DNA of 64,000 nt, from contig CP167917.1 of assembly GCA_041504365.1 (NCBI GenBank), positions 2,356,001-2,420,000 on the forward strand, read 5' to 3'. The stretch is from Dryocola sp. LX212. Its GTDB lineage: Bacteria > Pseudomonadota > Gammaproteobacteria > Enterobacterales > Enterobacteriaceae. The first letter of the stretch is position 1; the number at the start of each line of letters is the position of its first letter. The notes beneath the pieces are model-generated. The model searched no databases, was not told where the DNA came from, and worked only from the letters and a program-made list of their open reading frames with translations. The position numbers and the translations under genes are program-made. This document shows positions 19,434-21,341 of the stretch, in pieces.

Positions 19434-19490
19434 CCGATTTTTTATTCCTCTCTCCCTCGAGGTAGCTGTCTCTTATATAGGTCTTTGAAA

Positions 19491-19778
19491 CAGTTACTGG
19501 CGAGATCGAGAAGGTTCCGTTCACTTTACGTCAGGTGGCATATGTTGCTGCCGAACCGGTGAACGTCCAGAGGGTGTTCGCCGTCACACCCTCTGGGCTC
19601 CCGACTCCCGGCAACAAATCGCCACCTGCGGCGGTAAACCTCCATTTTTGGCTCCCTGTCCTGGTCGGTTGCGATTCGTTCCCGACGATCACAACCTCCA
19701 GCCGTTCCCGACGGCTGGACCCGGCCATGAAGCCAAAAAAGGAGGCGATTTAAGCCGGACCCAACACCCTCGCTTTAA
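19491..19778 (+). repeat. structured repeat, copy F
   Basis: About 288 bp. Local helices: CCAGAGGGTGT/ACACCCTCTGG (11 bp, about 19567-19596), CCAGCCGT-TCCCG-ACGGCTGG (19698-19718) and the long-range CCTCC..TTTTTGGCT with AGCCAAAAA.GGAGG (19639-19653 / 19731-19745). Blocks shared with copy R include GGTGAACGT, CGGTAAAC, GCGATTCGTTCC, GACGATC, TTCCCGAC and CGATTTAAGCCGG. Confidence 0.8.
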
Positions 19779-19850
19779 CTTCCAAGAATGTCCCATCTCC
19801 AGTGTCGCTGTAGATTTCAAAGCGATGCTATTTCTGATGTTATTTCTGGC

Positions 19851-20142
19851 TTAAAGCGACACCCTGTTCCCGGCTTAAATCGCTCCGGTTTTTGCCCTTC
19901 AGGCAGGGTCACGTTGTCGGGAACAACGTGAGAGAGCGATCGTCTGGAACGAATCGCGAACGACCCTGCATGTTGGGTAAAAACCGGAGTTTACCGCTTC
20001 AGCGGCGATTTATTTGCCGGGCGCCGGGGTCGTCAGGGGGATGGCGTATTCCCCATGACACGTTCACCGTTCGCAACGGTAGCAGAGATAGCCAGACGGT
20101 CGGGTGAACGGAAAACCAGCCGGTTAACAGATCCCCCTGACG
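19851..20142 (-). repeat. structured repeat, copy R (inverted)
   Basis: Diverged reverse-strand copy of the element at 19491-19778. Its helices sit at the same places but with different base pairs: CACGTTGT-TCCCG-ACAACGTG (19910-19930, same TCCCG loop), AAAAACCGGAG/CTCCGGTTTTT (19979-19989 / 19883-19893), and a closing stem CGTCAGGGGGAT/ATCCCCCTGACG (20031-20042 / 20131-20142). Paired changes of this kind argue for selection on structure. Confidence 0.8.
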
Positions 20143-20353
20143 TATAACCGGGATGAGTTGTGACTAAGAGGCAGATTGAGGGAGAGGGCTGGGTGAGAGT
20201 AAAAGTTAAGCGATAGCGCTGTGTCTGGTGAGGCTTGCCCTCATCCCCCAGGAGAATTAGTTAAAAAATAAGATTATCCTTACTGCAACCCGGCCCGCTT
20301 TTTGCCACAGTGGCGCCAACTCATTGACGGAATCAATACCTTAGGGAGAGGAA

Positions 20354-20781: not shown

Positions 20782-21063
20782 CTAGTAAGACCCACAGGTT
20801 CCGGCGGCAAGCGCGTTCTCACTACAGCGTTTGCCGTTGGGCATCGCGCACATGCCGACAGACGATCCGTCCAGCTGACGAGCAACGCTCAGCGTCCCGC
20901 CAATCATTGCGCAATTCGCCTCACTTTGACCTGACATCGCCGCTCTCATTCCCGGAGGAACGTGGGCAGCCGTCGCCTGTTGCGGTGGTTCACTACTACA
21001 TGCCGTTAACAGCGATGTGGATAACACCAGTGCGGCACAGCCGGCTAAAAACGCAGCGCGCAT
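20782..21063 (-). CDS. ydbJ: DUF333 lipoprotein YdbJ
   Basis: 93-aa putative lipoprotein: lipobox LTAC (Cys about 22), then a DUF333 region with the motif ANCAMIGGTLSVARQ and four further cysteines (CAMPNGKRCSENALAAGTC) likely in disulfides. Function unknown. ATG 21063 is chosen because AGAGGA lies before it; longer frames to 21171 lack a signal sequence at the right place. Stop codon is 2 bp from the hslJ stop. Confidence 0.88.
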   Translation of the reverse strand: MRAAFLAGCAALVLSTSLLTACSSEPPQQATAAHVPPGMRAAMSGQSEANCAMIGGTLSVARQLDGSSVGMCAMPNGKRCSENALAAGTCGSY

Positions 21064-21341
21064 TCCTCTTCTCCCCTGAACGTTGCAAAACCTATGAATC
21101 ATAAGTGCCAGCCCTGCCTGGGTCGAGGGCGTCACGCAACAAAAAGTGTCTACATTTGTAATACCGATCACCTTTTAGGATAAAACTCCAGATAATTCCT
21201 GGTAGGGATTATTCATTCCGCCAATGACCATCACACAAAAGCGAAAATCGCGCTTCCCGCCCTTTGCTAGACTTAAAGCATTATTCTTCGGCTCGCCGAG
21301 GTTATGCGGGTCTTTTATCTTTGCGCAATGAGAGCAACCAT

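Follow-up and report, generated by a model that had tools for sequence, protein, structure and literature searches.

The window analysed here is a stretch of 64,000 nucleotides of the Dryocola sp. LX212 genome. Between the genes ldhA and hslJ, the initial annotation had placed two inverted, diverged copies of an undescribed structured element at positions 19491..20142. Both copies are present. The inverted arms at 19663-19758 and 19870-19965 were found to be 74% complementary by an inverted-repeat search of the window, and the stems CCAGCCGT/ACGGCTGG and CACGTTGT/ACAACGTG around a common TCCCG loop can be seen in the sequence. The extent originally given lies inside a longer element of 709 bp, for which the following features were determined (window positions).

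19448..19465, no strand: left half of an interrupted REP-like hairpin (CTCTCTCCCTCGAGGTAG), uninterrupted in genome G004 (L244)
19466..20174, no strand: whole element, 709 bp; copies of the same genome align across this span and break at both ends
19466..19484, plus strand: left IS50/Tn5-type end CTGTCTCTTATATAGGTCT, 15/19 compared with the end consensus
19515..19565, minus strand: P1 hairpin of the left arm, TTCCGTTCAC ... GGTGAACG on the plus strand (sequence reading and arm alignment)
19567..19596, minus strand: P2 hairpin of the left arm with a variable G+C-rich stem (inverted repeat I10 and arm alignment)
19607..19759, minus strand: core RNA of the left arm, P3-P9 (match of covariance model R1, L001 1628-1780 (-), E 4.7e-25)
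19680-19682 and 19706-19708, minus strand: the two loop GGA of the left arm, within the core RNA
19760..19868, no strand: spacer separating the two outward-facing arms (between the R1 arm matches)
19869..20021, plus strand: core RNA of the right arm, P3-P9 (R1 match, L001 1890-2042 (+), E 1.3e-41, the right-arm sequence itself being in the R1 seed)
19920-19922 (P9) and 19946-19948 (P8), plus strand: loop GGA of the right arm, read in the sequence
20032..20059, plus strand: P2 hairpin of the right arm (sequence reading and arm alignment)
20061..20113, plus strand: P1 hairpin of the right arm, ending in GGTGAACGGAA (sequence reading and arm alignment)
20156..20174, minus strand: right IS50/Tn5-type end CTGCCTCTTAGTCACAACT, inverted, 16/19 compared with the end consensus
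20175..20197, no strand: right half of the interrupted REP-like hairpin (ATTGAGGGAGAGGGCTGGGTGAG), uninterrupted in G004

In RNA sense, P1 of the left arm ends in GTGAACGGAA, and this tail follows 21 of the 30 arms that were found by the core model alone. The conservation of P1 was judged on these 30 arms; in the pattern-selected set of at least 119 stretches it proves nothing, since the search pattern contains TTCCGTTCACC. Neither a sigma-70-like promoter nor a match to CsrB was found in the element.

The element is a mobile repeat and not a lone pair of copies. Using positions 19480-20150 as BLAST query, it was identified at 11 places in its own genome, the window included. Four of these copies are nearly full-length (that of the window among them), L005 is a core that lacks the outer ends, and the other six are truncated or have internal deletions. 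The three other nearly full copies are 95-96% identical to the window copy, and internal deletions joining inside palindromes were observed in L016, L018 and L060. Plasmids, E. coli genomes and phages gave no match to the element at E ≤ 1e-5.

The ldhA-hslJ region was without the element in all five other genomes of the genus that were examined. In G004 (L244) the region carries an uninterrupted hairpin, CCTCTCCCGCCCGGGAGAGG, whereas in the own genome the order is CTCTCCCTCGAGGTAG, element, ATTGAGGGAGAGGG. The window copy is an insertion into a REP-like hairpin after ldhA. The last 10 bases of the left hairpin half and the first 10 of the right half agree at 7 of 10 positions (L001), which is a possible target duplicate. 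Judged by eye, such duplicates agree at 10 of 11 positions in both L020 and L007 and are weaker at other loci, the targets being palindromic themselves. Their length looks like 8-11 bp by eye, compared with the fixed 9 bp target duplication of IS50. In the fetched loci, 42 distinct IS50-type ends lie no more than 150 nt from the arm start TTCCGTTCA, and a half of a REP-like hairpin was found at most 40 nt outside 18 of these 42 ends, compared with 0.8% of random 40-mers.

For the 19-bp Tn5/IS50 ends, the letters that we take to be the established ones were used. Ends of this type (at least 14/19) were detected on both sides in 10, on one side in 8 and on neither side in 31 of 49 scored paired-arm candidates, a set in which a few pairings (L034, L042) do not represent genuine elements with two arms. 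Among random windows, 5 of 3,000 had such ends. L005 (G000:C1 2776086-2776687) has the F-R core seen in the window copy, without the IS50-type ends, and its flanks GGTGATGTTCCG and CGGAAAAATACC are similar to those of several Buttiauxella and G024 copies. This suggests a second way of moving, or a loss of the ends.

An accompanying transposase, a possibility raised in the initial annotation, was not found in the element, and the Tn5-type transposase family PF02281 was absent from the own genome and from the same-family genomes among 147 relatives. In nine carrier genomes PF02281 likewise gave no match, but neither did the controls in that search, which is therefore no proof of absence. The family was detected at three loci in other families of the order. 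At L222 (over the family cut-off) the transposase gene is flanked by CTGTCTCTTGATCACATCT and CTGTCTCTTCTACACATTT and at L223 (just below the cut-off) by CTGACTCTTATACACAAAT and CTGTCTCTTGATCACATCT, about 1.5 kb apart in both cases; the third locus, L221, has a short frame and no IS50-type ends. The Tn5 transposase recognises two 19-bp ends (PMC6201506, excerpt). The element would be mobilised in trans by an IS50-type transposase. The partner transposase may be located elsewhere or may have been lost.

The element thus resembles insertion sequences and MITEs of the IS50/Tn5 group in its 19-bp ends of the IS50 kind, the missing transposase gene and the internally deleted copies. It differs from them in its structured-RNA cargo, in the many copies beside REP-like hairpins and in that no partner transposase was found in the carriers.

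The conserved content of each arm is a folded RNA with real covariation. Model R1 was built from 15 arms aligned by sequence only, with a structure of 50 pairs in helices P3-P9 written by hand from one arm. The fold of approximately 153 nt consists of the closing stems P3 and P4, the small hairpin P5, the long stem P6, the three-way junction P7 and the hairpins P9 and P8. Over 99 loci, R1 had 106 matches at E ≤ 0.01. A second set of 63 loci yielded 27, and the 28 viral control loci that it contained stayed without a match; repeat loci were left out of the R1 scans of 99 and 67 loci. The P1 pattern had also given 48 scattered matches in viral contigs, which were taken as chance since none of the 28 loci tested with R1 matched. 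After removal of identical sequences and those with N, 100 of 124 full-length arm matches were kept, of which 13 lack the core start by the search expression used and 33 were left untyped. When 100 arms were aligned plainly with MAFFT, RNAalifold returned a poor structure because the variable helices misalign, and the covariance model was used instead.

In the alignment of the R1 set, two-sided changes were found in 46 of the 50 pairs and 92.9% of the cells are paired. The covariation was 0.376, compared with 0.121 after shuffling and at most 0.054 with slid partners. Since this alignment was fitted to the structure and includes the seeds, a separate test was made with 21 distant arms that were not used for a second model, R2 (window-type and diverged arms); 20 of them are at most 85% identical to any building arm and one is 92% identical. 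In this distant set two-sided changes occur in 37 of 50 pairs, 84.9% of the cells are paired and the covariation is 0.457, compared with 0.139 after shuffling. P6 is the loosest helix there, with 67.8% of its cells paired. An earlier outside set of 29 distinct arms, which is partly independent only as 13 of the 29 share 85% identity or more with an arm used for the model, gave two-sided changes in 41 of 50 pairs and a covariation of 0.466 versus 0.148. The covariation reported initially for two copies therefore holds with many more copies and stays above that of shuffled alignments. For the window copy itself, the right arm folds at −82.7 kcal/mol (z −8.0 versus shuffles) with the consensus helices present, and the left arm at −82.1 kcal/mol (z −5.8).

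In both arms, the RNA corresponds to the strand opposite to the F reading of the initial annotation, and the arms face outward. In the sequence-only alignment of 15 close arms, read as the reverse complement of F, 29 cells in 10 pairs are G-U and none is A-C. The larger fitted alignment (A3) contains 176 G-U and 31 A-C in RNA sense, the A-C count being raised by low-scoring antisense matches of palindromic cores that stay in it (for example L112 +, L102 - and L131 -; that of L151:7131 was excluded from the counts over 90 arms). In the first outside set the numbers were 51 and 24, and in the distant set 37 and 19, a weaker asymmetry than in the close arms. Folding energy favours the RNA sense in 82 of 90 arms and in all 21 of the distant set. 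The layout at 16 loci of the first outside set is an outward pair in ten cases, arms of one orientation in two and only one arm in four.

The initial annotation had left the choice between a folded RNA and single-stranded DNA. The G-U rather than A-C mismatches in one strand and the better folding of one sense point to selection on the RNA and on that strand, and only the first of the two options is kept. Strand-symmetric helix mismatches, as expected of a single-stranded-DNA element of the attC or REP/RAYT type, were not observed. A function at the DNA level, as cruciform or single strand during transposition, or covariation that is merely the trace of template-switch repair at quasipalindromes, would fit the inverted arms, the palindromic hairpins, the deletions that join inside palindromes and the modest asymmetry of the distant arms. 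Under this explanation both strands should look alike, yet the close arms and the folding energies separate them clearly, and we regard it as very improbable.

The giant hairpin that the two arms could form with each other is probably avoided. None of 37 elements from three host groups has two arms that are at least 85% identical, whereas 27-50% of arm pairs from different elements reach this value, copies of one lineage being non-independent in this comparison. Selection against long perfect palindromes would produce such a pattern.

In the RNA sense, GGA is located in the loop of P9 in 90 of 90 arms and of P8 in 88 of 90, and in none of the P5 loops. The same distribution was found in the distant arms (21, 20 and 2 of 21 for P9, P8 and P5) and in the first outside set (28, 27 and 1 of 29). 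The window element thereby exposes at least two GGA in hairpin loops, as expected of a CsrA-binding RNA. In the window type, the loop reads C-N-GGA; its N is free and its closing pair covaries. This context occurs in 74 of 90 P9 loops, N being variable, and an A two bases before GGA in 16 of 90 P9 and 13 of 90 P8 loops.

The CsrA consensus obtained by SELEX is RUACARGGAUGU, mostly in loops of six nucleotides, and the repeats in CsrB are CAGGA(U/A/C)G (PMC7652899, excerpt). The SELEX consensus and the RsmE structure call for an A where the window loop has a C, and stems longer than those of most SELEX hairpins are possibly disadvantageous (PMC7652899, excerpt). The window copy has C instead of this A in its loops, and its loop stems are longer than in most SELEX hairpins. 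Outside the window type, the loops are mostly A-N-GGA-Y. Diverged arms of Entomohabitans, Huaxiibacter, Superficieibacter, Leclercia, Phytobacter and others mostly show A-N-GGA closed by C-G, and CUACAAGGAUGUAG in Phytobacter (L056) is an example that shows the published consensus.

The own genome encodes CsrB and one csrA. Of the 24 GGA in this CsrB, 13 have a C and 9 an A two bases upstream (read by eye), and the sequence UCUGGAA, which is the P8 loop of the right window arm, also occurs there. A CsrA paralogue adapted to C-N-GGA was not seen, with one csrA in each of 19 genomes. A loop of the Smaug type (CNGGN) was considered and dropped because the last A of GGA is conserved.

A comparison with Rfam gave chance-level scores for the window copy, and in this respect the initial statement that no Rfam family is recognised applies. 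It does not extend to the sister arms, on which the family RF01731 (TwoAYGGAY) falls. At E ≤ 0.01, RF01731 was found in 16 of 60 relatives, in seven of these over its cut-off, and a single genome had up to 22 matches. No matches were found in the own genome or in 14 control genomes, and the gathering threshold of 43 bits was not reached in the window or the own genome. Model R2 identified the same place and strand as RF01731 in five of five fetched Enterobacteriaceae loci over the cut-off (L228, L229, L230, L231 and L232; E 7e-11 to 1.4e-3); two such loci from other families (L227, L233) gave no match with R2. G008, G021 and G030 have RF01731 matches and no R2 match at E ≤ 1e-4. At L230 (G025), a long AAGTCC/AAGTTC microsatellite lies upstream of the TwoAYGGAY core.

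Like the arms, TwoAYGGAY has a three-way junction with two adjacent hairpins whose loops contain A-N-GGA-Y. P1 and P2 parts are found alongside in L228, L231 and L042, and a P2-like hairpin in L230 and L232. In the window copy the junction and the paired GGA loops are present; the loops are C-N-GGA and not A-Y-GGA-Y. It also differs from TwoAYGGAY by the missing RF01731 match, the two inverted arms and the IS50-type ends. Judging from these sequence comparisons, the window element is most readily understood as a relative of the TwoAYGGAY elements that is diverged and has IS50-type ends. A comparison of motifs led to the proposal that RF01731 binds CsrA (PMC4333381, excerpt), and the family belongs to the same Rfam clan (CL00106) as RsmV. 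The sRNAs CsrB/CsrC and RsmX/Y/Z/V likewise have GGA in hairpin loops, in C-N-GGA and A-N-GGA contexts. In contrast to them, the element is dispersed and mobile, combines two GGA loops in each arm with a complex, fixed fold, and no promoter was found.

Alternatively, the fold and its GGA loops could serve another host RNA-binding protein or the control of the element's own transposition, leaving Csr unaffected. The C-N-GGA of the window deviates from the A-N-GGA consensus at a protein-contacting position (PMC7652899, excerpt), the whole fold of 153 nt is conserved, which is more than two CsrA sites would require, and P1, P2 and the tail are often kept too. On the other hand, a free N next to a fixed GGA, the CANGGAYG-like hexaloops of other genera and the coincidence with RF01731 are what CsrA recognition predicts, and C-N-GGA is the commonest context in the CsrB of the same genome. 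Another partner is therefore considered unlikely, and recognition by CsrA is the preferred reading.

Arms of the R2 type were detected in 70 of 246 Enterobacteriaceae genomes and in 44 of 154 genera; these values and the copy numbers are floors, because at most 12 candidates were scored per genome with strict filters. Among 274 genomes drawn from the class, two had R2 arms, namely the own genome and G446 (L272).

The neighbouring genes could be called for 45 elements with a simple ORF caller. As raw counts without a background rate, 20 elements lie between convergent, 20 between co-directional and five between divergent genes; some sites are common to related genomes, and three of the divergent cases (L055, L074, L169) look like one site. 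Accordingly, 40 of 45 elements are located at the end of at least one neighbouring gene.

This position, the 20 elements between convergent genes, the REP-like hairpins that are often the targets and the very stable arm folds would also be expected if the element were a palindrome that, similar to REP/BIME, acts at 3′ ends to stabilise or terminate transcripts arriving from either side, its loop sequences being incidental. The terminator-like sites in the element are only two, weak and overlapping, both in the P5 region, versus 1.0 expected. The nearly invariant GGA in two of the three hairpins would be left unexplained, and we judge such a role improbable. REP/BIME, ERIC and other enterobacterial repeats, as generally known, are like the element intergenic, palindromic and dispersed, and often located at the 3′ ends of genes. 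Size, sequence and fold of the element are different, and it inserts into REP-like hairpins but is not one.

Taken together, the element is probably a non-autonomous transposable element (MITE) with IS50/Tn5-type ends, belonging to a family of CsrA-binding RNA modules made by read-through. We infer that it is transcribed, bound by CsrA, active in titration or local regulation and mobilised in trans as set out above. Transcription would occur by read-through from either neighbour, the element lying mostly at gene ends. Because the arms are inverted, a transcript from either side always has one arm in GGA sense as its 3′ half. This arm would fold on its own, and its P9 and P8 hairpins would together bind one CsrA dimer through their GGA loops, which are 23 nt apart. 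The copies would be CsrA handles on the host transcripts and, summed, a dispersed CsrA sponge. The effect could be local, on the stability of the host mRNA, or global, by titration. This account is weakest at the loop, with its C instead of A, and at the many elements lacking recognisable ends.

More tentatively, a transposable element family built on a CsrA-binding RNA may have multiplied across the Enterobacteriaceae and distribute CsrA sites over the 3′ UTRs of its hosts. In the own genome, 11-12 scored cores correspond to some 22-24 GGA loops, which is about as many as the 24 in CsrB, so that mobile DNA would rewire and titrate a global regulator. In the literature covered, which contains few subscription papers and includes an excerpt of PMC10969869, nothing fitting a CsrA sponge that is mobile, or a comparable MITE of the IS50 type, was found. 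Should the interpretation be right, a repeat that is common between the genes of many enterobacterial genera would be a structured RNA that moves and binds a regulator, and transposition would spread the binding sites of a global post-transcriptional regulator. The two-arm symmetry, if true, would let the RNA work in either insertion orientation. The orphan Rfam family TwoAYGGAY would gain a genomic identity, as arms of dispersed repeats, and a testable function, for which the covariance model, the strand and the exact loops for mutation are supplied here.

At L008, L017, L032, L106, L150 and L031, the P8 loop of arms that are otherwise normal carries an insert of some 70 nt. The inserts read in the own genome and in G016 have the stretch ACGCTTGCGT or a near copy in common. 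In the tandem array of G016 (L031:795-1026), the insert adds a CUC-AGGGAU-GAG hairpin and has a sub-threshold match to AaHKsRNA22. In L031 and L035 (G016:C1), arms of one orientation follow each other in tandem at distances of about 640-715 nt, and at L264 a GGAACC-TTCCAC tail, itself repeated, was found downstream of the arms.

Elsewhere in the window, Rfam matches were obtained on the minus strand for frnS (RF01796, 31550-31667, 121.5 bits) and for the Hfq-binding RNA STnc560 (RF01407, 11246-11455, 76.3 bits). A small ORF with a DUF333 domain (PF03891) adjoins hslJ at 20785-21171, also on the minus strand.
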